DNA of 43,872 bases from a virus. The notes below the pieces were generated by a model that saw nothing but the letters and a program-made list of their open reading frames with translations, was not told where the DNA came from and made no database searches. The stretch is from positions 1 to 43,872 of the IMG/VR virus record IMGVR_UViG_3300035670_000431, one strand, 5' to 3'. The first letter of the stretch is position 1. Each line of letters begins with the position of its first letter. A program made the position numbers and the translations under genes. Positions 98 to 31,978 of the stretch are shown in pieces.

Positions 98-125
98 GAC
101 ACCCCTTCAGTTAGAAGGGGATGTC
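86..125 (-). terminator. probable terminator of the leftward operon
   Basis: On the minus strand, an inverted repeat pairs positions 114-125 with 98-108 (GACATCCCCTTC against GAAGGGGTGTC, one bulged base). An AT-rich run with several Ts follows at 86-97. The hairpin includes the last codons and stop of the gene at 111-437, as often seen at the 3' end of compact phage operons. The T tract does not directly abut the stem, so termination efficiency is uncertain. The GACACCCC-type stem resembles the intergenic hairpins at 1270-1285 and 1943-1960. Confidence 0.5.
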
Positions 126-437
126 ATTATCCTGACCACGCTGGTCACGTGAGAGCTTATCCATCTCTTCTCGTTGCAGCTTGAGGATGCGATCAGCATC
201 CATCTTCTGTGCCATGCGCTTGTTACGGTGCATGGTATAAATGGCGTAGTCAAAGTCTTGCAACAAGAAGTCGCGCATCTCGGACATCTTGTCAAGCAAG
301 TGAGTCATCTCGTCGTTGTCGTAGCTAGTACGATCACTGCTACGCAGATCAAGCAACAAGAACGTGAGGCACTTCAAGGAGTTGAAGCATTGGTGGCGCA
401 TGCTGTTGATAAGAGAGTCGACTTGGGTGATCTTCAT
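111..437 (-). CDS. small helical protein with an SSB-like C-terminal tip
   Basis: A 108-aa protein of unknown family. The chosen ATG (437) is preceded by AGGACA at proper spacing; an upstream TTG at 488 would add 17 residues but has no SD. The sequence is charged and looks largely alpha-helical, with no visible OB-fold. The last six residues are DNDIPF, nearly identical to the acidic-hydrophobic tip (DDDIPF) of bacterial single-stranded-DNA-binding protein. In SSB that tip docks into partners such as exonuclease I, RecO, RecQ, PriA and the DNA polymerase III chi subunit. The tip follows a charged, flexible-looking stretch, as in SSB. A role in recruiting or competing for SSB partners is inference. 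It is the last gene of the leftward arm. Confidence 0.75.
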   Translation of the reverse strand: MKITQVDSLINSMRHQCFNSLKCLTFLLLDLRSSDRTSYDNDEMTHLLDKMSEMRDFLLQDFDYAIYTMHRNKRMAQKMDADRILKLQREEMDKLSRDQRGQDNDIPF

Positions 438-484
438 ATCTTGTCCTGTTAAACCACTGATAAGGTAATCATTTTTTATAGTCT

Positions 485-502
485 GCAAACTTCACAGTTT
501 GC
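485..502. other. perfect intergenic hairpin
   Basis: Seven base pairs (GCAAACT / AGTTTGC) close a four-base loop, between the stop of the gene at 533-757 and the start of the gene at 111-437. On the leftward transcript the loop is GUGA, a stable GNRA-type tetraloop. It lies upstream of the next ribosome binding site and may be an RNA stabiliser or processing site; it has no T tract. Confidence 0.5.
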
Positions 503-525
503 GACTCATTCCGTATGCAGGGGAC

Positions 526-540
526 CGGGGGATTACCCCG
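526..540. other. hairpin around the stop codon
   Basis: CGGGG and CCCCG pair over five GC-rich base pairs, with the TAA stop of the leftward gene 533-757 in the loop. It is one of several hairpins at gene ends in this arm, and may protect the 3' end or weakly terminate. Confidence 0.4.
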
Positions 541-757
541 CGTCCTCCTCTGTCATCTCGTACAACGCTTCGAGCTCCTTCATGTCCATCTCCAGCATCT
601 CGCGGATGCGGATCCAGGCACCGCGCTTGGTGCTCGGGGTACGCATGCACAGGATGAGGTCGGCCACGGTCATGCTGCTCAGGACAGCGCTGACCGCCAT
701 ACGGCAGTCGTAGCGCTTAACTTCGTCAGAGATGTTGTTGTTGCTAATAGCGTCCAT
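533..757 (-). CDS. small hypothetical protein (74 aa)
   Basis: Not recognised. The protein is helical-looking, with a hydrophobic middle (residues about 20-38) and an acidic C-terminus ending EEDAG. Its start is well supported: AAGGAAGAG lies seven or so bases before the ATG, inside the last codons of the upstream gene. One base separates that gene's stop from this ATG, so the two are translationally coupled. The neighbour is a small membrane protein, but nothing in this sequence shows that they act together. Confidence 0.7.
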   Translation of the reverse strand: MDAISNNNISDEVKRYDCRMAVSAVLSSMTVADLILCMRTPSTKRGAWIRIREMLEMDMKELEALYEMTEEDAG

Positions 758-758
758 G

Positions 759-962
759 TTACTCTTCCTTGGTTACCTTAACTTCCTTGCCATCTACCGT
801 TGCGCTGGCATGCACGTCGTGCATCCAGTGCTTGATGCGTTGGATCAGAACTTTGACATAGCCGCCACCTAGTCCAACGAAGACTTGGATGGCGACGATC
901 AGCAGCACGACACCGCAGATCAACGAGAGGAGAGACCAGATCAAGCCGAGAAGTGGATCCAT
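759..962 (-). CDS. small single-pass membrane protein (67 aa)
   Basis: Residues about 3-31 form one long hydrophobic segment rich in Leu, Ile and Val. A basic stretch (residues about 36-46) and a charged C-terminal tail ending VTKEE follow. This is the layout of a single-pass inner-membrane protein with a cytoplasmic tail. The family is not recognised. Phage proteins of this shape include holin-like proteins, superinfection-exclusion factors and lysis regulators, but nothing here selects among them. A GAGG-type SD precedes the ATG, and that SD lies inside a short hairpin (966-977), which could modulate translation. Confidence 0.7.
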   Translation of the reverse strand: MDPLLGLIWSLLSLICGVVLLIVAIQVFVGLGGGYVKVLIQRIKHWMHDVHASATVDGKEVKVTKEE

Positions 963-965
963 AAC

Positions 966-977
966 ACCCTCAAGGGT
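966..977. promoter_or_regulatory. short hairpin over a ribosome binding site
   Basis: ACCCT and AGGGT pair around a two-base loop just upstream of the leftward ATG at 962, and the strand read by the ribosome carries GAGGGTG here. The tight loop makes it marginal alone. It is a shortened version of the ACACCC/GGGTGT hairpins found before other genes of this arm. Confidence 0.3.
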
Positions 978-989
978 TAGGTTTTTTAG

Positions 990-1250
990 TTACTTGGTTA
1001 CCGTCAGGTGTCGCTGCATGATGAAGTTGTCATATATCCGCTTCTGCCAGTCTGGCACGCTCGGTGTCTCCATCTTGAGGTCATACTTTTCCAAGAAGTG
1101 GTAGTACAGGAAAGCGATATCCAGGTTACCGCTCTTGATGTTCTCCAAGCATTCGTTAGCCTGGAGAAGAGCGCATTCGAGCTTCGACTTCACCAGTTGG
1201 ATCTCTTCTTCCATGCGCTTGACGTGGATCTTGTATAGCACGTTGTCCAT
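990..1250 (-). CDS. small hypothetical coiled-coil-like protein (86 aa)
   Basis: Not recognised. The start at 1250 has a textbook SD (AAGGAGAT, then ATG). A longer open frame to 1349 overlaps the better-supported short gene 1285-1413 and has no SD, so it was rejected. The N-terminal half (residues about 10-40) is charged and heptad-like, consistent with a helix or coiled coil. The rest contains aromatic residues (YYHFLEKY). It follows the 42-aa gene across a hairpin-containing spacer. No catalytic motif or metal ligand set is visible. Confidence 0.7.
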   Translation of the reverse strand: MDNVLYKIHVKRMEEEIQLVKSKLECALLQANECLENIKSGNLDIAFLYYHFLEKYDLKMETPSVPDWQKRIYDNFIMQRHLTVTK

Positions 1251-1269
1251 AACTATCTCCTTGTAAGAT

Positions 1270-1285
1270 ACACCCCTAAGGGTGT
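1270..1285. repeat. ACACCC/GGGTGT intergenic hairpin, copy 1
   Basis: Six perfect base pairs close the loop CTAA. It lies between the stop of the 42-aa gene and the SD of the next leftward gene, in the same arrangement as the copy at 1943-1960. On the plus strand a T run follows, on the minus strand an A run precedes it, so any Rho-independent termination would act mainly on rightward transcripts. Confidence 0.55.
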
Positions 1286-1413
1286 CATTTTTTGTACTTA
1301 GCGATGAGGTCAAGCAGGGCGAATCGGTTGTCTGGACCGACCCAGCCATGCTTGGCCAAGAACTCCGCCCTCATCGTAGTGATGAGGTAGCGTACTCTGC
1401 TAATGGTGTCCAT
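1285..1413 (-). CDS. very small hypothetical protein (42 aa)
   Basis: A 43-codon frame begins MDTISRVRYL and ends DLIAKYKK. Its ATG overlaps the stop of the upstream gene as TAATG, a classic coupling arrangement. It fills the gap between two well-supported genes on the same strand and stops just at the ACACCC/GGGTGT hairpin. The composition fits the GC-rich leftward genes. It is basic and probably a single helical unit with a GWVGPDN turn. The function is unknown. Confidence 0.6.
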   Translation of the reverse strand: MDTISRVRYLITTMRAEFLAKHGWVGPDNRFALLDLIAKYKK

Positions 1414-1925
1414 TAGTCCAGTCCTTGGGGTAGCCAGTGCTTGTACCCCTTGATCTTACCGATCAAGTACGGTTGATCATCGTCACCCAAGACGATGAAG
1501 CTGCGGCTCTCGGGATGGAGGTCAACCACCTCCATACCATGGAACTTTACGCTGTCGGTGTGCTTCTTGAAGTCCAACGCCAGGTCACAGAGCAGATCAA
1601 CGTCTGCTTCCGGGAACACACGCATGTACTCCTCAAACACCGCCTTGCGCGAGCCAAGGGTGAACTTCTCCTTGCACTCAAACGCAAGGAACTCCGACAC
1701 CGACTCAAACCCGACGTCGTGCGCGAGGCAATCCTTGCACACCCAAGACCCCTGCTTGGTCGGGTATGCGTTGTAGAAGGCGATGGTGGCAGCGCACAGG
1801 TAGCAGCCACCGAACATGGCAAAACCGTGCTCTGCCATCAGCTGGCTGTTAACAACACCGTCGTGATCAACCACGCTGGGATCCATCTCTGCAGCCAACT
1901 CGAAAACCGTCATGTACTTGGTCAT
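1413..1925 (-). CDS. hypothetical protein with CxxC pair (zinc-ribbon-like)
   Basis: A 170-aa protein of unknown family. Residues 41-66 carry C41-x2-C44 and C63-x2-C66, the spacing of a small treble-clef or zinc-ribbon knuckle, which suggests a zinc-binding site. The remainder is acidic and helical, ending in a beta-like stretch with a DDDQPYLIGKIKGY segment. The start at 1925 is set by AAGGAG seven bases upstream. It follows the GACACCC hairpin (1943-1960) and is translationally coupled to the downstream 42-aa gene. Small Cys4 proteins in phage early regions often bind nucleic acid or host RNA polymerase; that role is only inference here. Confidence 0.75.
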   Translation of the reverse strand: MTKYMTVFELAAEMDPSVVDHDGVVNSQLMAEHGFAMFGGCYLCAATIAFYNAYPTKQGSWVCKDCLAHDVGFESVSEFLAFECKEKFTLGSRKAVFEEYMRVFPEADVDLLCDLALDFKKHTDSVKFHGMEVVDLHPESRSFIVLGDDDQPYLIGKIKGYKHWLPQGLD

Positions 1926-1942
1926 AGCTAACTCCTTGTAAA

Positions 1943-1960
1943 GACACCCCTAAGGGTGTC
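1943..1960. repeat. GACACCC/GGGTGTC intergenic hairpin, copy 2
   Basis: A perfect seven-base-pair inverted repeat has loop CTAA and is followed on the plus strand by six Ts. It lies in the spacer between the leftward genes 1966-2199 and 1413-1925, just before the SD of the latter. Sequence and placement match copy 1 at 1270-1285. Read leftward it could shape mRNA ends or stability; read rightward it resembles a terminator blocking antisense transcription. Confidence 0.6.
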
Positions 1961-1965
1961 ATTTT

Positions 1966-2199
1966 TTAGACCTTACGACGAACGTTGACACGACCGACCA
2001 GGTGACCAGCCAAGTTGTACTTGGCCAGCGCCCAGTCAATCTCGTAGCCACCAAGGCCACGGTAGTCACACACCACCAACTGACCACTGGAGAGATCAAT
2101 GGCGGTCGAGCCGATCACCGGGATCGTCGGGCACAAGAACTCAACAGGAACACCGAGGAACTCCAGCGCCTCGTTCAACGTCTTGGTAGCTTTGATCAT
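1966..2199 (-). CDS. small hypothetical protein (77 aa)
   Basis: Not recognised. Residues about 1-20 look helical, and the rest looks like beta strands (PVIGSTAIDL, GQLVVCDYRG, HLVGRVNVRR) with a basic C-terminus. This may be a small beta-barrel or nucleic-acid-binding fold, but no family is claimed. The start at 2199 has no strong SD, unlike its neighbours, so expression may be low or the start may differ. Upstream is a non-coding stretch of about 355 bp. Confidence 0.6.
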   Translation of the reverse strand: MIKATKTLNEALEFLGVPVEFLCPTIPVIGSTAIDLSSGQLVVCDYRGLGGYEIDWALAKYNLAGHLVGRVNVRRKV

Positions 2200-2389
2200 A
2201 ACACACCAAGGACAACCTACATTCTAGAATAAGAGTAACGTTTACTCGCCATGAGGGAGGAGTGCAGGTGGTCAATTCGCTGGATGGCATCAACACTAAC
2301 ATGAACACACACAAAGTGAATACTACATTCAGTACGCACAGACGGTTTACACTACCAACAACCGTTACTCTGTACCCTGGTTAGCATAG

Positions 2390-2407
2390 CTACCCCTCTT
2401 GGGGTAG
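2390..2407. other. perfect hairpin CTACCCC/GGGGTAG
   Basis: Seven base pairs close a TCTT loop within the gap 2200-2554. It has no adjacent T tract on either strand. The stem resembles the CACCCC-type hairpins elsewhere in this arm. Confidence 0.45.
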
Positions 2408-2425
2408 TGCCTCCTCTGTATTTAC

Positions 2426-2457
2426 ACGGGCTTGGAACCGTCAGTATTTTTACTGGC
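2426..2457. repeat. intergenic hairpin element, copy 1 of pair
   Basis: A 32-bp element starts ACGGGCTT and ends with a hairpin, CAGTA-TTTT-TACTG (2442-2455). It is similar to the element at 2510-2540. The outer pair of the stem is C-G here and T-A in the other copy, a compensatory change that points to a conserved RNA (or cruciform) structure. Confidence 0.5.
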
Positions 2458-2468
2458 TACATTAGGCA

Positions 2469-2501
2469 GGCCCCGCCTCCTTTATAGGGGAGGAGGGGGC
2501 C
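2469..2501. terminator. GC-rich inverted repeat, possible terminator
   Basis: GGCCCC (2469-2474) pairs with GGGGCC (2496-2501) and CCTCC (2476-2480) with GGAGG (2489-2493), with small internal bulges. It lies about 55 bp past the stop of the leftward 435-aa gene. No proper T tract follows on either strand, so it may act as a pause or 3'-end stabiliser rather than an intrinsic terminator. Confidence 0.35.
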
Positions 2502-2509
2502 TTGTTGTT

Positions 2510-2540
2510 ACGGGCTTACACCGTTAGTATTTCTACTAGC
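2510..2540. repeat. intergenic hairpin element, copy 2 of pair
   Basis: The second copy of the element at 2426-2457, starting ACGGGCTT and ending with TAGTA-TTTC-TACTA (2525-2538). It ends about 15 bp before the stop of gene 2555-3862 on the leftward strand. Stem positions vary in a compensated way between the copies. Confidence 0.5.
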
Positions 2541-2554
2541 TTCCGAGGTCGCGG

Positions 2555-3862
2555 TCAGTCGCCAAGCTTCCAGCCGTCAGCCAGCAGGCGCTTGATCGTA
2601 TCGCCCCAGCTGTAGCTGGAGCGGTACTCCGAACGCGCTGCCAACCAGCGGTTGGTGATCTCGGTGACCGCATCCGAGAACACGTCCTCCCCGCGTACCT
2701 CCGTCAGGTACGGCTGCAGCTTCGGGCGGATGGTTTCTTTGACTTGCGTCAGTTTCTCCATCTGCACCTTCAGCATGCCGTCGCCCGCACGCTTGGCGTA
2801 GATCATGACCTTTCCATCGGGGGAGACCAGGACCTTACGCTTCTGCTTCGGGAGGCGCGGTTGCGGATTCACCCGCTGCTCGTAGAGCTCGCTGCTCTTG
2901 TGGGAGAGCGGGGCCCATAGCCAGCCGGTCATGACGCCGTGCTTGAACACAGGCATCCAGACCGACCAGCGGCCGTTTGTCGACTCCAAGTCCTTGCGCC
3001 AAATGAGGCGCTCGGGGGCCTGGTAGAATTTCTTGACGAACTCCACCACAGCGGGTGTGTCGTAGATCTTCATTCCCATGCCCAGCTTCCGCACTTGGGT
3101 GAACGGCACCGGCTTTGCTTCCTTGCAGAAGCGGATGTCCATCACCCACTTGGAGCGAACGCCCTTAGGCGTCAACTCCAAGGTGACTTCCTCCTTGTTC
3201 TTGAGCACACGCTTGACCTTGCGGCCGACGTACATGCGCCCAAGCGACCAGCCCTTCGTGAAGGGCCGACCCTCGGAGTAGTCCTGGATGTTTTCCCAAT
3301 CGGGCTGCAGCCCGTCTTCGTCAAACGACGAGTACAGGCCGTGAGCCTTCTGGGTGACAGCCGCTTGGAAGGCGAGCTTGGCGTGGCTCACCCAGCCGTC
3401 GTCGCCCTCTGGGGTGACGAGGTTGGATGGCTCGCCCAGCGGGCGGAGGGTGGTGCCGTTCCGTCGAGCGTAGGCTTGCGCCTTGCTCTTTAGAATCATC
3501 GGGTTGATGCCCGTCAACTTGTAGTTGAGCGAGCGCAGTCCCGTGAGGACCTGTTGGTCGTCGTTTTTGCCTGCCTTTCGGCTGCAGAGAGACTTGAGCC
3601 ACACGCGCACTTCCTCGTTGCCCAGCATCTTTTCGATGCCGTGGCCGAGGATGTCCTTGATGTGACGCAAGTCTGCGTCGACCATGTCCAACATCGACTT
3701 CTTCTCGAACCCCCAACGGGAGTCCGTGTCGTCGTCGTTCTGGACGTCCACGTCACCAGCCAGCGCCGCCTCGGCAGCCTTAACCAGCAACTGATTGACC
3801 TCGCGGCCGCCAACCACACCGTTGACGACCGGACCCTTCTTGCTTTCACGCTTCGTGGTCAT
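2555..3862 (-). CDS. hypothetical protein (435 aa), largest leftward gene
   Basis: Not recognised. It is the only large gene of the leftward arm, with high GC and codon use close to its small neighbours. The N-terminus (residues 1-60) is charged with an acidic patch of consecutive Asp (NDDDTD). The middle is basic and carries many Trp and Lys residues (DGWVSHAKLAFQ, GVRSKWVMDIRF). The C-terminus is helical and ends DGWKLGD. No Walker, nuclease or metal motif could be identified. The start at 3862 is preceded only by a weak GTAGGTAAC. A DNA- or RNA-binding early protein would fit the basic composition, but this is speculation. Confidence 0.75.
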   Translation of the reverse strand: MTTKRESKKGPVVNGVVGGREVNQLLVKAAEAALAGDVDVQNDDDTDSRWGFEKKSMLDMVDADLRHIKDILGHGIEKMLGNEEVRVWLKSLCSRKAGKNDDQQVLTGLRSLNYKLTGINPMILKSKAQAYARRNGTTLRPLGEPSNLVTPEGDDGWVSHAKLAFQAAVTQKAHGLYSSFDEDGLQPDWENIQDYSEGRPFTKGWSLGRMYVGRKVKRVLKNKEEVTLELTPKGVRSKWVMDIRFCKEAKPVPFTQVRKLGMGMKIYDTPAVVEFVKKFYQAPERLIWRKDLESTNGRWSVWMPVFKHGVMTGWLWAPLSHKSSELYEQRVNPQPRLPKQKRKVLVSPDGKVMIYAKRAGDGMLKVQMEKLTQVKETIRPKLQPYLTEVRGEDVFSDAVTEITNRWLAARSEYRSSYSWGDTIKRLLADGWKLGD

Positions 3863-4030
3863 AGTAGTTACCTACTCAGATTAGATTTCCCGGCACTAAT
3901 CAGGCCGTTGGTTGTTTTTATTTGTACTTAGGAACCGGTCAACCACCGTATACCAAAGCCACGTTGAACTAGCGTGGCGCTAGGAATCCGTCATCGCTAC
4001 AGGCCAGCGTTTGCTAGCCTGTTTGCGATA

Positions 4031-4056
4031 GGGATAGACCCTTGTAGGTCTATACC
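4031..4056. other. intergenic hairpin
   Basis: ATAGACC and GGTCTAT pair over seven bases around a six-base loop, extended by GG/CC beyond one mismatch. It is directly adjacent to the larger hairpin at 4065-4093; together they could form a compact structured leader or trailer. Confidence 0.45.
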
Positions 4057-4064
4057 TTAGGACC

Positions 4065-4093
4065 ATGGCTGCGCGGTTAAGCGCAGCAGCCAT
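4065..4093. other. strong GC-rich hairpin
   Basis: ATGGCTGC and GCAGCCAT pair perfectly over eight bases, with a further three GC pairs (GCG/CGC) inside after one bulged base. It has no T tract. It lies just before repeat copy A at 4107-4169. Confidence 0.5.
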
Positions 4094-4106
4094 TAATGGC
4101 GTCGAT

Positions 4107-4169
4107 CCTCTACTTTGGTTACCTGGGCCTAGATTCGCACCCAACCACCATCACTGGTGGCCTAGTAGT
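4107..4169. repeat. intergenic repeat, copy A
   Basis: About 43 bp (CCTCTACTTT, then GTTACC, GGGCCTA, TTCGCACCC, ACCAC) closely match 5101-5162, followed by a hairpin of similar position but different sequence: CCACCA-TCAC-TGGTGG here (4145-4160). Both copies are between leftward genes. Conserved sequence plus a conserved but rewritten stem suggests a functional RNA or protein-binding element. Confidence 0.6.
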
Positions 4170-4297
4170 TTACCTACCCATTTCTAGAGCGCGGGTAGGC
4201 ACGCGCTATCTACATTATTTGATTACCCAGGTTAATGTTAGCACTGGGGATATCCCTTTTGTTCACCAGAGGATATCAATTGTACTGGTGGCGCAGG

Positions 4298-4579
4298 CTA
4301 CACCGTCTTAACGATGTAGGTCCGAGCGGGTTGTGCGTATTGCACCATCTGCTCGAACGACAGCTCCTTGCCACGGAGCTCCGCCGGGATTGCCAGCGGA
4401 ATCTCAGTGACCTGAGCTGCCTCCGCTGCCAGGTGCAGGGGCAGTACGCCATAGACGTGCTTGCCCTTGATCTGGTCAGCGGTGACGTGGCTGATCACAG
4501 CCACATCTCCTGCGACCTCGCCTACGTGGCGCAGGTATTCAACCAGCGCCGCGTGACGGGTCACAACAACCTTATCCAT
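4298..4579 (-). CDS. csx16: Csx16-like protein (VVA1548 family), putative ring nuclease / anti-type III CRISPR
   Basis: A 93-aa protein that matches the CRISPR-associated Csx16/VVA1548 family in length and conserved blocks. These are TRHAALVEYL near the N-terminus (residues 7-16), a His after a short strand (H31), the block GVLPLHLAAEAA (44-55) and PAELRGKELS (65-74). Csx16 normally accompanies type III CRISPR-Cas loci. Recent work, recalled and not checked, places it among ring nucleases that cleave the cyclic oligoadenylate second messenger. No Cas gene or repeat array is present in this window. A free-standing copy in a phage early region therefore suggests a viral counter-defence enzyme, analogous in role to AcrIII-1. 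The start is fixed by AGGAGG just upstream. Family assignment is by motif recognition; the role is inference. Confidence 0.8.
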   Translation of the reverse strand: MDKVVVTRHAALVEYLRHVGEVAGDVAVISHVTADQIKGKHVYGVLPLHLAAEAAQVTEIPLAIPAELRGKELSFEQMVQYAQPARTYIVKTV

Positions 4580-4676
4580 ATCCTACCTCCTGGTAGTATG
4601 GGGTTGTATCCCTAGTATCCGACTAGTAACGGGATAGTTTTAAAGGATGACTACCAACCTAGAAGAGGAGAAGAGG

Positions 4677-5012
4677 TTACCGGTCGCCCTCTTCCTCCAT
4701 TTCTTCGAGGACCGCACGGTAGTAATCGGCCCGATCTTGGGCCTCCTGCTTCCGCAGCCGCCGCCGGTCACGGTCGTTCTTGGGGGGAACGATCCCCGCC
4801 AAGACTGCTTCCTTGTGAAGCTGCGTATCGGTAAGATTGGATACTACACTCAGCATCCCGGGGAAGCTGCCTTGCGGGCAGCAGTCAGGATCGGTACAGC
4901 CCCCGTGGAGCGAGGTGTCAGCCTTGGCCACCTTGGCGGTCGCGTCAATGCCCGACTCGACCAGGTGCTTGACCAACTCAATCGCGTTCTCTGACTTAAA
5001 ACGATTCGACAT
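4677..5012 (-). CDS. hypothetical protein (111 aa) with Cys cluster
   Basis: Not recognised. It begins with a helical segment (residues 1-30) and has a Cys-rich turn GGCTDPDCCPQG (residues about 37-48). It ends in a very charged helix rich in Arg, Glu and Asp (residues about 78-111), likely a coiled coil. Three Cys in a short loop could hold metal but do not match a named motif. The start at 5012 has a strong AGGAGG at good spacing. The gene lies immediately upstream of the csx16-like gene in the leftward direction, about 97 bp apart, so they may be co-transcribed; a functional link is possible but unproven. Confidence 0.7.
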   Translation of the reverse strand: MSNRFKSENAIELVKHLVESGIDATAKVAKADTSLHGGCTDPDCCPQGSFPGMLSVVSNLTDTQLHKEAVLAGIVPPKNDRDRRRLRKQEAQDRADYYRAVLEEMEEEGDR

Positions 5013-5199
5013 GATATCCTCCTAGATACCAGCAGTCTGTTTGCGCAATTGCTACGACGTGTAACAACATACGCCGCCACCACCTGCAATGGTAGCAATA
5101 CCTCTACTTTAGTTACCGGGGCCTAGGATTTCGCACCCCACCACATTGCTGTGGCTTTGTAGCTCACTGCAGTTTATAGACATGCTTAGGTCTTAAGGC
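5013..5199. other. short non-coding spacer with repeat copy B
   Basis: The spacer between two leftward genes carries the SD for the 111-aa gene at its left end and repeat copy B (5101-5162). No reading frame is supported. Confidence 0.5.
5101..5162. repeat. intergenic repeat, copy B
   Basis: The second copy of the element at 4107-4169. It shares CCTCTACTTT, GTTACC, GGGCCTA and TTCGCACCC blocks in the same order with few changes. It then has its own hairpin CCACA-TTGC-TGTGG (5141-5154), in the position where copy A has a longer stem. Confidence 0.6.
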
Positions 5200-5370
5200 T
5201 TACGCTCCGACCTGGGCGTATAGCCCATGCAGTCGGCGGTAGACCTCACGAATCAGTGCAACAAACGAGGCCTCTTCAGCCTTGCTGTTGCACTTTGCCA
5301 TCTGGTCCTGGAGGACCCCAACACGGGCCTCCAGTTTCCAGATGGTCTTCCAGATTTTCTCCTCTGACAT
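5200..5370 (-). CDS. very small hypothetical protein (56 aa)
   Basis: A 57-codon frame begins MSEEKIWKTIWKLEARVGVL and ends LYAQVGA. The ATG has a perfect AGGAGG at eight or so bases, in the same leader style (CCAGGAGGAT) as its neighbours. Composition fits the GC-rich arm. The sequence is one or two amphipathic helices with a heptad-like pattern, so a small coiled-coil or adaptor is plausible. The function is unknown. Confidence 0.7.
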   Translation of the reverse strand: MSEEKIWKTIWKLEARVGVLQDQMAKCNSKAEEASFVALIREVYRRLHGLYAQVGA

Positions 5371-5431
5371 GACATCCTCCTGGATGCATAGCGAAACAGA
5401 TAATATGGAATAAAGCTTCCCATCATCAGGC

Positions 5432-5450
5432 CATAGGTAGCTAACCTATG
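5432..5450. other. perfect intergenic hairpin
   Basis: CATAGGT and ACCTATG pair over seven bases with a five-base loop, in the spacer between leftward genes 5536-5772 and 5200-5370. It has no T tract. Confidence 0.45.
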
Positions 5451-5486
5451 ACGACCACCTCCTTTGGGTAAGTGGTTTCGGGATAC

Positions 5487-5510
5487 GGGGTAGATTGAAG
5501 GCTCTACCCC
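5487..5510. other. perfect eight-base-pair intergenic hairpin
   Basis: GGGGTAGA and TCTACCCC pair perfectly around an eight-base loop, about 26 bp past the stop of gene 5536-5772 on the leftward strand. It resembles the 2390-2407 hairpin and may mark a transcript end or processing point, but no U tract follows on the leftward RNA. Confidence 0.5.
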
Positions 5511-5535
5511 AAAGGCCTTTCAGACAGAGAACCTG

Positions 5536-5772
5536 CTAGGACCAGATGGCCCGCAGCAGGTTATCTGCCTGGCGTTGCGACATGCCTTGGTGGCGTACAC
5601 GGTAACGTACCGTCCTGGAGGCGTAGCGCCTAGCGGTGGCAAGCGCCTCGGACAGCTTATTCCGGAGGTCTACGCTCTCTTGCGAGAAGTAGACCAACCC
5701 GTCGCCAACTACGGCTTGATCGCAGAGATCCTTCAGACGAAAGATCTCGACAATGTCGTCAAACAATCGCAT
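5536..5772 (-). CDS. small hypothetical protein (78 aa), first gene of the leftward arm
   Basis: Not recognised. The start at 5772 is chosen because AGGAGAATATC precedes the ATG, the same leader style as the genes downstream; the frame stays open to 5853 but has no SD there. The protein begins with a hydrophobic/acidic helix (MRLFDDIVEIFRL) and ends in an Arg-rich half (residues about 45-78) with many basic residues, suggesting nucleic-acid contact. As the promoter-proximal gene of the arm it would be expressed first, an early-gene position. Confidence 0.65.
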   Translation of the reverse strand: MRLFDDIVEIFRLKDLCDQAVVGDGLVYFSQESVDLRNKLSEALATARRYASRTVRYRVRHQGMSQRQADNLLRAIWS

Positions 5773-5889
5773 GATATTCTCCTGAATACCAGATGCCCCC
5801 GGTGGCCATGAAACGCGAAGTGCGTTCCACTCGACCAGGAGCTCAATAGTCATCTACTAAATATTACTTTTTTAACACACCTAGGAGAA

Positions 5890-5903
5890 TTTTTGACACA
5901 CGC
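5890..5903 (+). repeat. TTTTTGACACACGC motif, copy 1 (putative -35 region)
   Basis: The 14-bp motif is identical to 5954-5967. It includes TTGACA (5893-5898), with TTTATA beginning 18 bp after the hexamer, so it could be a sigma70-type promoter. Alternatively it is a binding site for a phage regulator. Confidence 0.5.
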
Positions 5904-5953
5904 CATTTAAAATTTTTTTATATATTTTTATTTTTTTCTATATACATAGAATT

Positions 5954-5967
5954 TTTTTGACACACGC
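5954..5967 (+). repeat. TTTTTGACACACGC motif, copy 2
   Basis: An exact second copy, 64 bp downstream of the first. TATAAATA follows after only a few bases. The conserved 14 bp in both copies followed by an AT-rich hexamer suggests a phage-specific promoter or operator rather than two ordinary host promoters. Confidence 0.5.
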
Positions 5968-6056
5968 GCTATAAATAACTGTTGTTAAATAACAAAGCAC
6001 CAAATATGTTGGGTATCTTTTTGCCTCCTTATTAGATCATATAGGAGATATTAAAA

Positions 6057-6743
6057 ATGAAAAAGATACTTCTACTTTTTTTAGTTATATTCATAACGGC
6101 CTGTAAGTCACCAGAAACGCTTTTTAATAATTTAGTAGTTAGAGCTTACCACGAAAGAATTACTGGCGTAGCATGCGCTAGCGCGGTTCTGATTGACTGT
6201 ATTAAGCAAGATGAAAACAGATATGAACTCGTGTTCCTATCATGTAAGCATTTCCTCCCCCAGGAGGAATTACTTGATTTAAAAACTGATATAATATTCG
6301 TTCAATTTTTCAGCGGATCTGATCAACCTGTTTTATCCAAAAAAGTAGAAAAAATAATATATCATCCCACTCTGGACATCACACTTCTCATAGCAGAGAA
6401 TGATAGCTTTCTGGAGCCATCAAAAATAAATGTCAGTAGTCCTGCCGCCGCCGAAAAAGTAGTAGCCGTAGGATTTCCGTTAGGGATAGGAATGTTAATC
6501 ACAGAAGGTCATATTTGTTATGACCTAGTAGGACAATCAATTTCCGTATGTTCCGCACCCATATATCCAGGAAACTCCGGAGGAGGAGTGTTCTACATAG
6601 CAACAAAAGAATTAGTAGGAATTACTATTCAGCTTTTAGTCATTCCCTCTTCTCGCGGGGAAACATTAGCAACACATGTACATATGTTCATACCTTTGGT
6701 ATTTATTAAAGATTGGCTGGAGAAAGCTTATGAAAAAGACTAA
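6057..6743 (+). CDS. predicted lipoprotein trypsin-like serine protease
   Basis: A 228-aa protein. Residues 1-15 form a signal peptide and ITAC (13-16) a lipobox, so Cys16 would be lipidated and the protein exported and anchored in a membrane. The rest has the chymotrypsin/DegP-type triad in order: His65 in FLSCKHFL, Asp107 in TLDITLLI, and Ser174 in PGNSGGG, the family hallmark. It lacks a PDZ domain and is shorter than DegP. It is the first rightward gene with a good SD (AGGAG). Exported proteases are unusual in phage genomes; modification of the cell surface, superinfection exclusion or lysis are possible roles (inference). Its end overlaps the next gene. Confidence 0.8.
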   Translation: MKKILLLFLVIFITACKSPETLFNNLVVRAYHERITGVACASAVLIDCIKQDENRYELVFLSCKHFLPQEELLDLKTDIIFVQFFSGSDQPVLSKKVEKIIYHPTLDITLLIAENDSFLEPSKINVSSPAAAEKVVAVGFPLGIGMLITEGHICYDLVGQSISVCSAPIYPGNSGGGVFYIATKELVGITIQLLVIPSSRGETLATHVHMFIPLVFIKDWLEKAYEKD

Positions 6744-7896: not shown

Positions 7897-8141
7897 ACAT
7901 TCCTGTAGACTTAATGATCCATATTATCGAAACATCGGAGGACTGTAAAGCCTATCTAGACAAGAAGTACCAATACGAATATGAAATCTGGACCCGATTC
8001 TCAAAACGAAATGGAAAATCCTGCCCCTTTGCCAGAGCAGCCATCAAGCGAATCTTCCAACTTGAGTACCAAGAAAGAGGACAGGAATTTCTCTGCTCCC
8101 TTGGATCTAAAAGTTGGGGATGTCAAAACAATCAAGAGTGA
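7893..8141 (+). CDS. small hypothetical protein (82 aa), overlapping the next gene
   Basis: Its ATG overlaps the upstream stop as ATGA, which strongly suggests that translation continues here. The protein has three or four Cys, including SCPFARAA, and a helical pattern. From 7981 on, its frame overlaps the start of the 270-aa gene by about 160 bp in a different frame. Either both are made, or this is a short leader peptide coupling translation to the 270-aa gene, whose true start may then be further downstream. Confidence 0.5.
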   Translation: MNIPVDLMIHIIETSEDCKAYLDKKYQYEYEIWTRFSKRNGKSCPFARAAIKRIFQLEYQERGQEFLCSLGSKSWGCQNNQE

Positions 8142-8793
8142 TCTTGTTAATAGTTTGGCAAGCTACGTTGGAAGCAATGTAACTAAAGAGCAGAAAAAAC
8201 TTATTAAGAATTTTATTGATTTTAGTTCCAAAGGTTTTGTAGCATCGATGTCTATGACATGTCGTGGACAAAATTGTCCATTTCTTAGTGCATGTGTCTT
8301 AAATCAGGCTGGAGCAGAACTCCCTATCGGAAAACCATGTCCCCTAGAACAGTCTATTATTGTGTCTTGGGTCACTAAACATCTGAAAGCATTAGGCATT
8401 GAAGATATTGATGACCCAATACACTCCTTTGATATGGATATGTTATATGAACTTGCTGGACAAGAATTATTGAGGTGGCGCTGCGGTGTTCACTTGTCTG
8501 ATGATCCTAGACTTGTTAGCAATCAACAAGTTGGAGCAACCCTACAAGGAGAGCCTATATTTTCTGATGTTATGAATCCTGTACTTACAGTAATGGAGCG
8601 TGCGGGAAAGAACATCACTAAGATTAGAGAAGCTTTAGTGGCTACTAGAGAATCTCAGCTAAAAGCTGGTCAGATAAATACTGATCCTACTCAGAAAGCT
8701 GCAGAACTACGAGCTAAAGCTCATGAGATTGCTCAAGCAAGAAAAAACCAACTAGAAAAATTAGTTGATGCAGATTTTAAGATAAAAGAATAA
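7981..8793 (+). CDS. conserved-looking Cys-cluster protein upstream of terminase (270 aa)
   Basis: After a low-complexity Pro/Ser/Glu-rich N-terminus (residues 1-45), the core has C94-x4-C99-P, C105 and a later KPC120-PLE motif. This four-Cys arrangement resembles ones I recall, without checking, from large-phage proteins near terminase genes, and could bind zinc or an iron-sulfur cluster. The C-terminal third is a long charged helix (residues about 195-265). Location and size would allow a small terminase subunit, but no helix-turn-helix is evident. The start is uncertain: ATG at 7981 or 8011, neither with SD, both overlapping the 82-aa frame. Confidence 0.7.
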   Translation: MKSGPDSQNEMENPAPLPEQPSSESSNLSTKKEDRNFSAPLDLKVGDVKTIKSDLVNSLASYVGSNVTKEQKKLIKNFIDFSSKGFVASMSMTCRGQNCPFLSACVLNQAGAELPIGKPCPLEQSIIVSWVTKHLKALGIEDIDDPIHSFDMDMLYELAGQELLRWRCGVHLSDDPRLVSNQQVGATLQGEPIFSDVMNPVLTVMERAGKNITKIREALVATRESQLKAGQINTDPTQKAAELRAKAHEIAQARKNQLEKLVDADFKIKE

Positions 8794-8795
8794 TT

Positions 8796-9008
8796 ATGAA
8801 TTTTTTTAATAAGTATCTTATGTCTCCTGTCCTAGGTACCATATCTAAAAGAGGTATGAATCCTAATGTAATAAGACAACCAACAACTAACCTGTTATTT
8901 AATACACACAACTTTGCTAAAAGAAATACTACATTTGGTTTTTCTGGAAAAAGACATATACCTTATACAAATATTGGACACAGATCTAGAGCAACAGTAA
9001 GGTATTAA
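8796..9008 (+). CDS. small basic hypothetical protein (70 aa)
   Basis: Starts two bases after the upstream stop with no SD, so it is probably coupled. Basic and rich in Asn, Arg, Thr and Gly, with no obvious fold; the C-terminus ends in an Arg/aromatic pattern (RATVRY). It lies in a group of probable virion genes. The function is unknown. Confidence 0.6.
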   Translation: MNFFNKYLMSPVLGTISKRGMNPNVIRQPTTNLLFNTHNFAKRNTTFGFSGKRHIPYTNIGHRSRATVRY

Positions 9009-9009
9009 A

Positions 9010-10356
9010 ATGGGATTATTTAATGTATTAAGTAAACTTGTAACTTCAGGTACAAAAGGACTAGCTGAATATCGGGCTATGTCTAAAGCTGTTTCTAATT
9101 TTACTCTAAATAATATTGGAAATAAAGAATTAAGAGCAGCTATATCCGGATTTGGAACATCTAGTATGCTCCAAAGAGGAGCGCTTGCTGGTGGATACTT
9201 AGGTGGTTCTGTAGTTGCTAACACGCTCATAGATATTGGAGAAGAGAGACTTAGATCTTATTATGGCAATGAAACTTACGACAGAGAGATTGGCGGTGGT
9301 GCATCTTCTCTAAAAACTGCAGCAAGCTTATTAGGTCTTGGTTCTGCATTTAGTGCAGTATTAGGAAAAGATATTATTAGTAGATCAATAAATAGCTATT
9401 CTTTTAATTTTGGAAAAGGAAGACATGCTGCTAAACTGTTGGGAAAATATAATTCTAGTAATACTATATCCCAATTAGATCATATTTCTAAAGAAATAAG
9501 TTTTAGACAAGCAAGATTAAAAAGACGAACACCAACTGCAGATAACCCTACAGGATTTAAAAGACCATTATTTCATAATGATACATTTAAAGGCTATGAT
9601 GCTAATTTTATGGGACCAGTATCTCCAAGACATAGTCGACATACTGCTCTTAGAAAAGATTATTCTATTGATAAAGAAAAAAGAATTATTTCAGATTTAC
9701 AATCAGCAAGAAGAAATGTAGCATTTGCAGCAAGAGCGCCTAGATTAGATATTATTAATCCAATAATTAGAGGAGTAAAAGGAGAAGATGCACCAGCCTA
9801 CGCTGCAGCCAGAGGTATTATGGGAGTTGGTAGACTATCCTTTTATGGTGGAATGATAGGGCTTACTGGTTTAGTAGGAGAAAGTGCAGCGCCAATTTTG
9901 GGCATTGCTGGGGTGTCTGCTATAGGTGTTTCCGCAATAGGAAAAAAGTTTATTAAGAATCCTTATGGTAAAAACTTCTCAGGAGCTAGTAAAACTAATA
10001 AGCTGCTTGGAAAAGCACCGCCAAGACCAAGTACTAATATAACTGTTGATGATCCAAACTACAATCCTAAGGATCCTTATGGATATAGTGCGTTTGCAGA
10101 GTATACATATCGTAAATTTATGCAAAAAGAAGCAGGATATGGTTCTGGTATAATGGGCAGTTTAGCAAGCTCACTAGGATTTACTATTGCTGGAGTAGGC
10201 GGAGGTATAGCCTTAGGTATAGGTACTAATGAATATAAGCATACTTTTGCTGAAGGAGATATAACTTCTATGGATCAAAGAAGTACTACACAAAGATTAA
10301 ACTATTCTACAGCTGGATTAGTTCAAGCTCTTCACAATAATAGTAGGAGATTCTAA
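9010..10356 (+). CDS. probable virion protein with Gly/Ala hydrophobic segments (448 aa)
   Basis: Not recognised. Several Gly/Ala-rich hydrophobic segments (residues about 60-80, 98-118, 275-320 and 380-408) alternate with basic linkers. This pattern is typical of virion proteins that enter or cross membranes, or of inner-capsid proteins. AGG precedes the start weakly. It overlaps the next gene as TAATG. Similar Gly/Ala segments occur in the 1,448-aa protein at 35295, so both may belong to one structural complex (inference). Confidence 0.65.
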   Translation: MGLFNVLSKLVTSGTKGLAEYRAMSKAVSNFTLNNIGNKELRAAISGFGTSSMLQRGALAGGYLGGSVVANTLIDIGEERLRSYYGNETYDREIGGGASSLKTAASLLGLGSAFSAVLGKDIISRSINSYSFNFGKGRHAAKLLGKYNSSNTISQLDHISKEISFRQARLKRRTPTADNPTGFKRPLFHNDTFKGYDANFMGPVSPRHSRHTALRKDYSIDKEKRIISDLQSARRNVAFAARAPRLDIINPIIRGVKGEDAPAYAAARGIMGVGRLSFYGGMIGLTGLVGESAAPILGIAGVSAIGVSAIGKKFIKNPYGKNFSGASKTNKLLGKAPPRPSTNITVDDPNYNPKDPYGYSAFAEYTYRKFMQKEAGYGSGIMGSLASSLGFTIAGVGGGIALGIGTNEYKHTFAEGDITSMDQRSTTQRLNYSTAGLVQALHNNSRRF

Positions 10357-10951: not shown

Positions 10952-11713
10952 ATGACTACAAAAATAGCAAAGAACGCTTTAAAGGTTTTGTTTTTAGATA
11001 TAGAAACAACACCTAATCTTGGCTGGTGCTGGGGTAAATACGACCAAAATATTATAAAATTTGAACAAGAATCATATATGCTTTGTTTTACAGCAAAGTG
11101 GTTAGATTCTAAAGAAATAATTACTCTTGGTCTAGATGATTTCCCTAATTATAAAAAAGATATAAAAAACGATAAGCAGTTAGTTCAGAAACTCTGGGAA
11201 TTATTAGATCAAGCAGATATTGTAGTTGCCCACAATGGAGATTCATTTGATATTAAGAAGACTAACGCGAGATTCTTAATGAATGGACTGGGACCACCCA
11301 GTCCTTTTCGTTCTATAGATACTAAAAAAGTAGCAAAGAAATACTTCTTATTAAATAGCAATAAACTAGATGATATTGGTAAGAATCTTAATGTAGGTAA
11401 AAAACTATCTACAGGAGGATTTAAGTTATGGTTAGGATGCATGTCCGGTGATGAGTCCAGTTGGAAAAAGATGAAGAGATATAACAAGCAAGATGTTAAT
11501 CTTCTTGAAGAAGTATATCTTAAACTCAGACCATGGATAAATCCACATCCAAATGTAGGAATTAATATATCAAAAGAGACATGTAACTGCTGCGGTAGTA
11601 AGCGATTACAAAGAAGAGGATTCTCTTATTCTAGACAAGTAAAATATCAAAGATTTCAATGTACTAGTTGTGGTTCTTGGAAACAGGGCGCTGTCCATAA
11701 AGATGAACAGTAA
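10952..11713 (+). CDS. DEDDy 3'-5' exonuclease-like protein with C-terminal zinc ribbon
   Basis: A 253-aa RNase H-fold nuclease of the DnaQ/YprB type. Exo I is LDIETT (Asp16, Glu18). Exo II is AHNGDSFDI with Asp97 or Asp100. Exo III is YNKQD (Tyr177, Asp181), which gives DEDDy. It is far too short for a DNA polymerase, and no polymerase domain follows. After the nuclease, residues 211-240 hold CNCC and CTSC pairs like a transposase-type zinc ribbon. Placed right before the terminase and overlapping it by 11 bp, it may trim DNA ends or process packaging intermediates. Substrate and role are inference. Confidence 0.85.
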   Translation: MTTKIAKNALKVLFLDIETTPNLGWCWGKYDQNIIKFEQESYMLCFTAKWLDSKEIITLGLDDFPNYKKDIKNDKQLVQKLWELLDQADIVVAHNGDSFDIKKTNARFLMNGLGPPSPFRSIDTKKVAKKYFLLNSNKLDDIGKNLNVGKKLSTGGFKLWLGCMSGDESSWKKMKRYNKQDVNLLEEVYLKLRPWINPHPNVGINISKETCNCCGSKRLQRRGFSYSRQVKYQRFQCTSCGSWKQGAVHKDEQ

Positions 11714-13529
11714 ATATACACCAGAAAATAATTATTTAGAAACGAACTACACACCAATTCGTGGATTTGACGAAGACATGTGTAGTCGTTGTGTTAATTA
11801 TTATAGTAAATTATATTCTGAAAAAAAAACAAAAAGCCCTTTTCCTCCTAATTGCCAAAAACACATGCAATCTAGGATTTCCTATTTAAATGAGTCTGAT
11901 TTTGAAAACACTAAAGAATATGAAGACGCTGTTATTTTATTAGATCCTATTTCTTGGGCCTATTCTGAATTTGGATGGACACCCAGATGGTATCAAAGCG
12001 ACATGCTCTCTTGTTCTGCTCAAAAAAAGCTATATAGATGTGGCCGAAGAATTGGAAAGTCAGAAGCATTGGTAGTTGAAACTTTATATTTGGCAACTAC
12101 GGCAGAAAGATTCACAACTCTAGTAATTGCTCCTTATGAAAGACAAGTAACAAGATTATTTGATGAAATGGAAAAGTTTATTAATGTAAGCGTTTCATTA
12201 AAAGGATCAATCAGTAGATATACAAAGACACCATCTAGAATTGACTTTAATAACGGAAGCAAAATACTAGGATTTTCAGCAGGAGCAACAAGCGCAAGCG
12301 GTTCTGATAAGATCCGTGGACAAGATGCCCATCTTATTATTATAGACGAAATAGATACTTTAGCAGATGCAGATATCGATGCTGTTATGGCTATATTAGC
12401 TTCTCATAAAGAATGCAGATTAATTGCAGCAACCACACCTAGAGGTTGGAGAAGAAGATTCTTTACATATGCTACAGATAAAGATCTTGGTTTTAAAGAA
12501 TTTTGGTTTATATCTGCTGAATCCCCAGAGTGGGACGAGTCTACTGAAAAATTCTTTAGAGGCTCTGTTGACGCAACTACATATGCTCACGAATACCTAG
12601 CTGACTTTGCTGAACTAGAGGAAGGTGTATTTAAAGCAAGACAGCTTAATGCTGCTATTTCTGACTATGATATGGACTCTATTACAAAACACGAAGGAGC
12701 AGAATATATATTAGGAGTGGATTGGAATAAGTCTGCTGGAACGCATATGGTTATATTAGAATGGTACAATAATAGACTAAAATTAGCTAAAAAGATAATA
12801 GTTGACGAAAGTGCTTATACACAAACAGATTCAGTACAGCTTATTATTAGTCTAAATAGACAATGGCGATTTAAGTATATATTTGTTGATGCAGGATATG
12901 GTAGCGTTCAAACAGAACTACTCAGGAAGCATACACTATCAGAACCAAGCTCTAGATTTGATGAAAAGCTTCATGCTATTCATATGAATCAACATATTGA
13001 TGTTATAGATCCATTATCTGGAGAAAAAATAAAAAGATTTGCAAAACCATTTTTAATAGATCAAACTAAAAAACTGCTAGACGATGGTTATTTGATATTA
13101 CCAAGATCTGAGGATACTAATGTCAATGCAGATAGTTCTCAGCTTGGATTAATCCAGCAAATGAGAAACTTTAGAATAGACTCTATTTCTGTTTATGGAT
13201 TACCTAGATACTCTCAAGGACAGGATCATACACTTACAGCTTATTACTTAGCTTGTGGTGGATTCTTCTGGAAAGAAGGAGACTTAAAGCAACCTCCATA
13301 TTTAAAAGGTGTTGTTGGAATAGAAGTTAGTGATACAGTAAATCCTGAAAAAACAAGAACAGAAATAGAAAGAGAACAAATGGCTAGGTCAGGATGGAAA
13401 CTTACGAATTCTTCTGGAAAAGTTCCAACAAGAAAGTCTTTAGGAAGAGATTTAGATTCAGGGCGATCTAATTTTGGATCTCAATCTAGAAAGAATATAG
13501 GTAATAAATTTAATAGGAAGAGTTTCTAA
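11703..13529 (+). CDS. terL: terminase large subunit
   Basis: The ATP-driven DNA packaging motor and nuclease. With the ATG at 11703 the protein is 608 aa; a GTG at 11670 is possible but also lacks SD. Residues 27-54 carry CSRC, C and H, a possible N-terminal zinc knuckle. Walker A is CGRRIGKS (113-120), Walker B LIIIDE (211-216), and a TTPRG coupling motif lies near 245. The RNase H-like nuclease shows Asp340 (LGVDWN), Asp396 (FVDAGYG) and a late acidic site in QDHTLTAYY. It binds the portal during packaging; the portal gene lies two genes downstream. The C-terminal tail is basic and Ser/Arg/Asn-rich. Confidence 0.97.
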   Translation: MNSKYTPENNYLETNYTPIRGFDEDMCSRCVNYYSKLYSEKKTKSPFPPNCQKHMQSRISYLNESDFENTKEYEDAVILLDPISWAYSEFGWTPRWYQSDMLSCSAQKKLYRCGRRIGKSEALVVETLYLATTAERFTTLVIAPYERQVTRLFDEMEKFINVSVSLKGSISRYTKTPSRIDFNNGSKILGFSAGATSASGSDKIRGQDAHLIIIDEIDTLADADIDAVMAILASHKECRLIAATTPRGWRRRFFTYATDKDLGFKEFWFISAESPEWDESTEKFFRGSVDATTYAHEYLADFAELEEGVFKARQLNAAISDYDMDSITKHEGAEYILGVDWNKSAGTHMVILEWYNNRLKLAKKIIVDESAYTQTDSVQLIISLNRQWRFKYIFVDAGYGSVQTELLRKHTLSEPSSRFDEKLHAIHMNQHIDVIDPLSGEKIKRFAKPFLIDQTKKLLDDGYLILPRSEDTNVNADSSQLGLIQQMRNFRIDSISVYGLPRYSQGQDHTLTAYYLACGGFFWKEGDLKQPPYLKGVVGIEVSDTVNPEKTRTEIEREQMARSGWKLTNSSGKVPTRKSLGRDLDSGRSNFGSQSRKNIGNKFNRKSF

Positions 13530-30325: not shown

Positions 30326-31978
30326 ATGACAAATTACCTTCCTCGTATAAATACAGTTTTAAACGATCAGGGATTAAAGGTTGCTCCTCCACCAGCTGGT
30401 CCGAAAGTAACTCTTTTAGGTGTAACATCAAACTCAGCAATACCCCTATTTGAGCCTTTCACTGTTGGTTCGGTTGAAAAAGCAATTAATTCTTTGTACT
30501 TTAACTATAGCGGTGTAGCAGGCTACCCAACAGAAAATGTTCCTGGAGAGCTCTCGATAGCTCTTGAAGAGGCCATTTCTGCTGGCGCTCCTAATATTGA
30601 AGTTATGGTTATTGGCCATAAGAGCGGTCAAACCTTGATAGACTATGCCTATCCTGGCGCTGCCCTTTCTGGAAGATATGTAGATTTAGCTAGTGCTTAT
30701 GATGTTCTTAAAAATAGAGAATGCGATGTAGTAGTTCCTGTTGGTGTGTATATGGATGATAGCATATATACTTCAGTCAGTGGTGCTACTCCTATTTCTT
30801 CTTGGAACTTTGGTAAGCAATTAGCAAATTTCTGCTACCAAGCTACTGCTCAAGAAAATGCTTGTGCTGGTGTTATTAGCACAAGACCTGTTCTTAGCTG
30901 GGCTATGAGAAATAGTAGAAAAACTAACTACTTTGCTGCTGCTACTGGAGTTGGCGGTTCTTCGCTTGCTAATGGCGATGCAACTATATACAGCGAATTA
31001 GAAAGCTTATTCGGCGCTGCTTGGTTAAGCGGAGACGCTCCAAGTGTTTCTGAAGTAAGATCAGCTATGGCTAGTGTTCAATTTGGAACACCTTCTACTC
31101 GTCTCGTTAATGAGTGGTATAACTACCACATCTACAACAAGACAGCCATGTACACTACAATGTCCGGTCTCTATGACTCGACTTATGATGCATGGATTCA
31201 TGGTGCTGCCGACTCTGATAATAACCTATTGTCAGACGTTAATCCAAATACAGCCTCAGCCGTAAGCTCAAATTACTTTGCTTCTTGGCAAGCAGTTGAT
31301 TCTGATGGTGCTGTTGTTGTAGATTCAAGAAATGTTAAAGTAGATGCTGGCGCTTACTTGAGTGTGTTCACCTGTCCAGTAAGATCAGTTGGTACACAAT
31401 TAGGTAGAGCTGCTATTACTTTTGGAGCAAGTCTTGCTAATACTAGCATGAATAGCTCTGGTGCGGCTGGCTATGCTGGATTAATCACTAGCTTGGCTCC
31501 TCAGTCCTCTACTACAAACAAGCAAGTTGCTGGCTTACTGCCTCTCAAGCTTCTTAGCTCTTCACAGGCTAATAACTTGACTGGTATTCGTCACGTAACT
31601 CTGTATACCAGATCTACTGGATTTACTGTTGCTTCTGGATTAACTGGCGCTCACAACGTGAGCCGTTATGTCCGTTCAGACTACACTAGACTTAGTACCT
31701 TGCGTATTACGCAAAGCGCAGTAGACTTGATCAGAGCAATTGCTAGTAAGTACATTGGTGAGCCAAACAATGCTCCTCAAATGAATGCTTTAGATGCTGA
31801 AATTGATCAGATTCTTCTTAGCATGAAAGGACAGGGTGCGCTAAATTCATATAGCTTCTCTATCACTTCAACTCCAGACCAGAGAGTCTTGGGTGAGTTA
31901 GACATAAATCTGACTCTTGTTCCTGCTTTTGAGATTACAACGATTAACCTCACTGTATCTCTTAGCAAAGAACTTTAA
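30326..31978 (+). CDS. tail sheath protein
   Basis: A 550-aa contractile tail sheath subunit. Recognised by GRYVDLASAYDVLKN, CDVVVPVGVYMDD and FGKQLANFCYQATAQ blocks, the C-terminal RYVRSDYTRLSTLRITQ region and the terminal beta segment with TPDQRVLGELDINLTL. An SD (GGAGAT) and biased codons indicate high expression. It makes the phage a myovirus. It follows the connector genes and precedes the tube, the usual order. Confidence 0.95.
   Translation: MTNYLPRINTVLNDQGLKVAPPPAGPKVTLLGVTSNSAIPLFEPFTVGSVEKAINSLYFNYSGVAGYPTENVPGELSIALEEAISAGAPNIEVMVIGHKSGQTLIDYAYPGAALSGRYVDLASAYDVLKNRECDVVVPVGVYMDDSIYTSVSGATPISSWNFGKQLANFCYQATAQENACAGVISTRPVLSWAMRNSRKTNYFAAATGVGGSSLANGDATIYSELESLFGAAWLSGDAPSVSEVRSAMASVQFGTPSTRLVNEWYNYHIYNKTAMYTTMSGLYDSTYDAWIHGAADSDNNLLSDVNPNTASAVSSNYFASWQAVDSDGAVVVDSRNVKVDAGAYLSVFTCPVRSVGTQLGRAAITFGASLANTSMNSSGAAGYAGLITSLAPQSSTTNKQVAGLLPLKLLSSSQANNLTGIRHVTLYTRSTGFTVASGLTGAHNVSRYVRSDYTRLSTLRITQSAVDLIRAIASKYIGEPNNAPQMNALDAEIDQILLSMKGQGALNSYSFSITSTPDQRVLGELDINLTLVPAFEITTINLTVSLSKEL

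Follow-up and report, generated by a model that had tools for sequence, protein, structure and literature searches.

Two viral ring-nuclease families with anti-CRISPR activity, AcrIII-1 and AcrIII-2, are characterised in the literature covered, and the native role of AcrIII-1 is disputed. AcrIII-1 (Crn2, DUF1874) is a small virus-borne cA4 ring nuclease, and AcrIII-2 is a viral SAVED ring nuclease of 230 aa which acts on cA4 and derives from a CRISPR-associated protein. Homologues of Crn4b, a ring-nuclease family with a different fold that acts on more than one cyclic oligoadenylate (cOA) species, are found on phages and plasmids. The Csx16 protein encoded in CRISPR loci is a cA4-specific ring nuclease that degrades cA4 completely in vitro and does not cleave cA6 (PMC12409355), so that the link between Csx16 and cyclic oligoadenylates given in the first-pass annotation of the DNA described here was correct. 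The conserved residues of Csx16 cluster at a modelled ligand site (PMC12409355). In phages, Csx16 was previously counted in 2 of 28,114 genomes (published in 2025). We infer that these are the genomes of the methanogen viruses Drs3 and PhiF3, as they were the only matches among the 50,697 records of the phage collection searched here. Thus, neither the cA4 activity of Csx16 nor its presence in two phages is new.

The protein analysed in this work is virus-borne, as are AcrIII-1 and AcrIII-2. It is small and, by analogy, would be a cA4 ring nuclease like the former; its derivation from a CRISPR-associated protein is a trait shared with the latter, and occurrence on phages and plasmids is shared with the Crn4b homologues. 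However, it is a Csx16 and not a SAVED protein, its fold differs from that of Crn4b, and DUF1874 was absent among its Pfam matches at E up to 1. It also resembles the proteins of Drs3 and PhiF3, which are virus-borne, stand-alone PF09652 proteins, but is about 35% identical to them.

The window, i.e., the whole stretch of DNA analysed, is a single linear IMG/VR record of 43,872 bp. Judging by its terminase, capsid and tail sheath genes, it belongs to a contractile-tailed phage of myovirus morphology. The main features are as follows:

111..5853, minus strand: arm in which csx16 is surrounded by about ten small genes (GC content 49-58%), presumed early or accessory
2555..3862, minus strand: gene for a 435-aa protein of unknown function, with a homologue in the related phage contig L020
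4298..4579, minus strand: virus-type csx16 gene (PF09652), 93 aa from ATG to stop, AlphaFold2 pLDDT 96.4
4586..4591, minus strand: Shine-Dalgarno sequence AGGAGG, 6 nt 5' of the csx16 ATG, read directly from the sequence
5854..6056, no strand: divergent intergenic region with two TTTTTGACACACGC copies, putative promoter/operator
11670..13529, plus strand: terminase large subunit (phrog_2, E 2e-31), tailed-phage context
20064..21419, plus strand: major capsid protein (phrog_3922, E 2e-20)
30326..31978, plus strand: contractile tail sheath protein (phrog_16991, E 1e-57)

The whole 43.9-kb window contained no RAMP (Cas7/Cas5-like) gene and no CRISPR-like repeat array, which bears out the earlier description of csx16 as a stand-alone phage gene without cas genes or repeats. 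No Rfam match was found in the window, and the left-arm genes scanned around csx16 received no Pfam, PHROG or PADLOC assignment. The same annotation had called this arm early-type; small minus-strand genes are indeed clustered there, divergent to the late arm, and their early expression is presumed. The relatives of the terminase among cultured phages were 30% identical or less, which is too distant to name a host.

Several other elements were observed in the window. The two TTTTTGACACACGC elements lie in tandem at 5890-5911 and 5954-5975, at the GC step, and are candidate promoters or operators. The palindrome ACACCC(CTAA)GGGTGT, followed by a T-run (plus strand), occurs at 1270-1293 and 1944-1967, in each case shortly before the start of a minus-strand gene, where it may act as an operator or hairpin. 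A 26-nt element (92% identical) is repeated in the left-arm intergenic gaps at 4107-4132 and 5101-5126, flanking the csx16 region. The late arm starts with a trypsin-like protease with a lipoprotein-like signal (6057-6743), which is also found in the related phages L013, L014 and L020.

The comparison with profile models showed that the csx16 product matches PF09652 (Cas_VVA1548, Csx16) with an E-value of 4.3e-19 and 68.9 bits, above the curated cut-off of 25 bits. The match covers residues 5-90 of the protein and positions 2-90 of the 91 in the profile. The PADLOC Csx16 model gave 5e-18, and the initial assignment to the Csx16 family, thus, holds. However, the NCBI-curated Csx16 model of NCBIfam, TIGR02620, gave 1.4e-7 and 31.7 bits, below its curated cut-off of 46.35 bits, so the profile check proposed in the first-pass annotation came out positive for Pfam and fell short for TIGRFAM. 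Since the PF09652 cut-off was passed and that of TIGR02620 was missed, the protein is, by its profile matches, a member of the broad Csx16 family and not a typical CRISPR-locus Csx16. With a family match far above chance, the open reading frame is to be regarded as a real gene, and dN/dS values of 0.06-0.34 in close pairs of viral csx16 copies indicated purifying selection.

In the AlphaFold2 model of a cell-type Csx16 (pLDDT 92.5), the core strands and helices follow one another as in the model of the window protein. The agreement expected from a structural comparison with Csx16 was, therefore, found for the core, but not for helix 3, which spans residues 48-51 in the viral model and 47-55 in the cellular one. 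From these positions, the four-residue deletion in the modelled viral protein takes out about one turn of the helix. The Foldseek search of the PDB with the viral model gave no match at E ≤ 0.001; the weak matches (E 0.66-1.4) included the CARF proteins Cad1 and Cam1 and the viral SAVED structure 9r8s. Nothing significant was found among viral models. A sequence search of the PDB returned DARPin/ankyrin-type proteins and a few stray matches, which were rejected as relatives because they reflect a chance LPLHLAA-like motif. The claim that the fold is unrelated to that of AcrIII-1 is not supported, in view of a published DALI comparison in which Csx16 matched the viral AcrIII-1/Crn2 homologue 2J6B significantly but weakly (Z 4.8; PMC12409355), although Foldseek detected nothing significant here. 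On the basis of this published match, a distant relation between Csx16 and AcrIII-1 is possible.

The phylogenetic tree of 88 proteins was divided into a virus-type and a cell-type side with support of 100/98. The virus-type side gathers 64 viral proteins, including that of the window, together with three plasmid proteins and one prophage protein. The two reference-phage copies, from Drs3 and PhiF3, lie outside this branch, on the cell-type (CRISPR-type) side, and beyond them the phage collection held no match to the branch of the window. The two sides also differ in a sequence signature. A four-residue VCAR-like segment preceding the ARYLHL motif is present in all 12 cell-type rows of the alignment and in none of the 65 virus-type rows, and it is lost in the window protein; in the virus branch, the deletion comes after a conserved GxLPxxLA stretch. 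Several further branch-specific positions besides helix 3 distinguish the virus branch from CRISPR Csx16. Five residues, R8, H9, G44, P47 and R69, are invariant across the 77 aligned proteins of both branches, and V6, T7, H31, V42, L46, L50, G70, E72 and L73 are nearly so. The window protein, thus, shares the Pfam family, the modelled core order and the five invariant residues with CRISPR-locus Csx16, but is encoded outside a CRISPR locus, carries the deletion, scores below the TIGR02620 cut-off and belongs to a separate branch.

As far as the sampled sequences show, this branch consists almost entirely of virus and plasmid proteins. The division into virus and cell types is likely, rather than certain, to be exclusive, since a viral query was used to collect the viral proteins and one peptide pattern to collect those from genomes. 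A literature search did not find a separate, widespread virus and plasmid branch of Csx16 with the helix-3 deletion, and we consider this branch, which includes the window gene, to be new.

The first scan of IMG/VR yielded seven Csx16 relatives, and the alignment-based scan extended these to at least 87 contigs, 80 of which were kept. Their GC content ranges from about 30 to 71%, implying varied hosts. The 50 larger viral records were scanned for RAMP and terminase genes. Only one of them carried RAMP genes, with a match below the curated cut-off, and a single terminase family was detected in 25. The exception is the terminase-bearing contig L002 (IMGVR_UViG_3300037424_001387), in which a virus-type csx16 frame is followed, after about 2.4 kb, by type IV csf2 (Cas7) and csf3 (Cas5) genes at 8067-9714. 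The csx16 frame itself is extended by about 140 aa. The clustering of neighbouring genes revealed no conserved partner of csx16, besides antisense open reading frames over csx16 itself and packaging genes. Moreover, a search of 16 phage records with related terminases did not detect csx16; no positive control gave a signal in that search, but the same family was detected in G000. As a conserved neighbour is lacking and the gene is missing from these 16 records, csx16 behaves as an accessory gene, in a gene-content pattern resembling that of an accessory anti-defence gene.

The plasmid copies showed some peculiarities. In plasmid pMESIL02 of Allomeiothermus silvanus, a protein of about 670 aa annotated as Csx16 is encoded at 7998-10013, and three distinct matches of the window protein were obtained on this plasmid. 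Deinococcus and Paenibacillus plasmids also have a csx16, with no annotated cas gene up to 8 kb away.

The cellular relatives are of a different type. In 17 of the 18 genomic matches, a biased sample because it was retrieved with a single peptide pattern, the protein was of the cell type. The bias is partly offset by PF09652 samples from two phyla. In Pseudomonadota, Csx16 exceeded the PF09652 cut-off in 12 of 398 genomes, all with cell-type proteins; in the phylum of L141 it did so in 3 of 246, with two matches at about 120 bits, as in cell-type proteins, and one partial match of 25 residues. RAMP genes were present in all 15 genomes examined (14 with cell-type copies and that of the single virus-type copy, L124), and in several cell-type genomes (L129, L130, L131, L134 and L141) their coordinates place them no more than a few kb from csx16.

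Among the genomic copies, only L124 is of the virus type; it is located in a prophage region flanked by housekeeping genes. This region encodes a serine recombinase and carries a repressor-like gene, along with DNA metabolism genes of phage type; the recombinase and repressor, as well as miaA-, rarA- and dapA-like genes, were identified by inspection, without profiles. The host MAG carries a Cmr-like cluster of type III-B, with a Cas10 (PF22335, 6e-34) whose GGDD motif is intact. A virus-type Csx16, thus, occurs alongside its predicted target in one MAG, although it is metagenomic binning alone that links the two contigs. In the same prophage (MAG AUK090), a 329-aa protein is encoded at 10207-11196 of L157, directly beside this normal virus-type csx16. 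By inspection, it contains two further diverged Csx16-like stretches in tandem, one of which is over the profile cut-off, and it is possibly a single-chain dimer.

These results are best explained if the window protein is a phage cA4 ring nuclease that opposes type III CRISPR, a reading by analogy with the characterised Csx16 to which we assign a probability of about 0.65. During infection, presumably at an early stage, the phage would make a small stand-alone protein of the Csx16 family, probably a dimer. The type III Cas10 of the host would sense phage RNA and make cA4, and the phage Csx16 would destroy it; deprived of cA4, the CARF and SAVED effectors of the host would stay off, and the phage could replicate. 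The removal of cA4 is suggested by the retention of the family-wide residues R8, H9, G44, P47 and R69 in a viral branch that has lost one turn of helix 3. This reading draws on the family match and published activity, these residues, the structural model, the viral spread, the accessory pattern, the selection and the prophage host. The helix-3 deletion and the missed TIGR02620 cut-off may, however, leave room for a changed chemistry, and ring-nuclease homology is, in view of 2025 work cited in PMC12751052, by itself not proof of anti-CRISPR function.

One alternative concerns the origin of the gene. Within about 1 kb at the divergent region, GC content drops from 49-58% to about 35%, and this step raised the suspicion that the GC-rich arm at 1-5.9 kb, which carries csx16, is of foreign origin and was misjoined to the phage in assembly. 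When viral sequences were scanned with the 435-aa protein of this arm as query, that method yielded no relatives. However, contig L020, whose terminase is 66% identical to that of the window, encodes a homologue of this protein (26% over 333 aa, E 1.9e-18) on the minus strand, upstream of the same late genes, i.e., in the same relative and divergent place. The segment around the L020 homologue is likewise GC-rich (56.6 vs. 46.5%). With the same place, strand and GC-rich setting, the homologue identifies the arm, on comparative grounds, as part of the phage lineage; many other viral contigs also carry Csx16 relatives. A chimeric left arm was, therefore, rejected as highly improbable.

The remaining alternatives concern the activity of the protein. 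The viral branch could have lost efficient cleavage and oppose type III CRISPR by binding and sequestering cA4, as might be suggested by Csx15, a related CARF-like protein that binds well and cleaves very slowly, with some non-enzymatic members (PMC13148439), and by the divergence of the virus branch near a conserved motif, where GxLPxxLA precedes the deletion. We consider such a sponge unlikely, given that the viral proteins keep the residues which are conserved across the two branches, that sponging has been argued to cope poorly with a messenger which type III systems make in large amounts (PMC13148439) and that Csx15 was not found in phages (PMC13148439). The differences at helix 3 and at the branch-specific positions, as well as the varied hosts implied by the GC range, would also suit a protein directed at another cyclic nucleotide, e.g., the signal of CBASS or a related system, which would make it an anti-defence but not an anti-type-III factor. 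This is distinctly unlikely, as the characterised Csx16 is specific for cA4 and leaves cA6 uncleaved (PMC12409355), and a type III-B locus with a GGDD Cas10 was present in the only host that could be traced. Very unlikely is some other use, be it the regulation of a phage- or plasmid-borne CRISPR system, the exclusion of rivals or no role at all in a recently captured passenger. The type IV genes near csx16 in L002 fit it, but 49 of the 50 viral records had no RAMP match, and the purifying selection and the spread over at least 87 contigs speak against a passenger.

A broader reading is more tentative than that of a cA4 ring nuclease in the window phage. The virus and plasmid branch may form a distinct, widespread class of anti-defence ring nucleases, with a pocket remodelled by the short helix 3 for faster turnover or a different specificity and with an occasional single-chain tandem fusion, such as the 329-aa protein of L157. 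Given that Csx16 destroys the signal by which type III systems raise the alarm and that its separate branch is almost entirely viral, the window protein probably serves the phage as a weapon against CRISPR. Reference phage collections, in which csx16 has been counted twice, badly undersample the viral gene. The at least 87 contigs of uncultivated viruses, together with the sequence signature and the prophage in a type III-B MAG, make a viral takeover of a CRISPR 'off-switch' testable.
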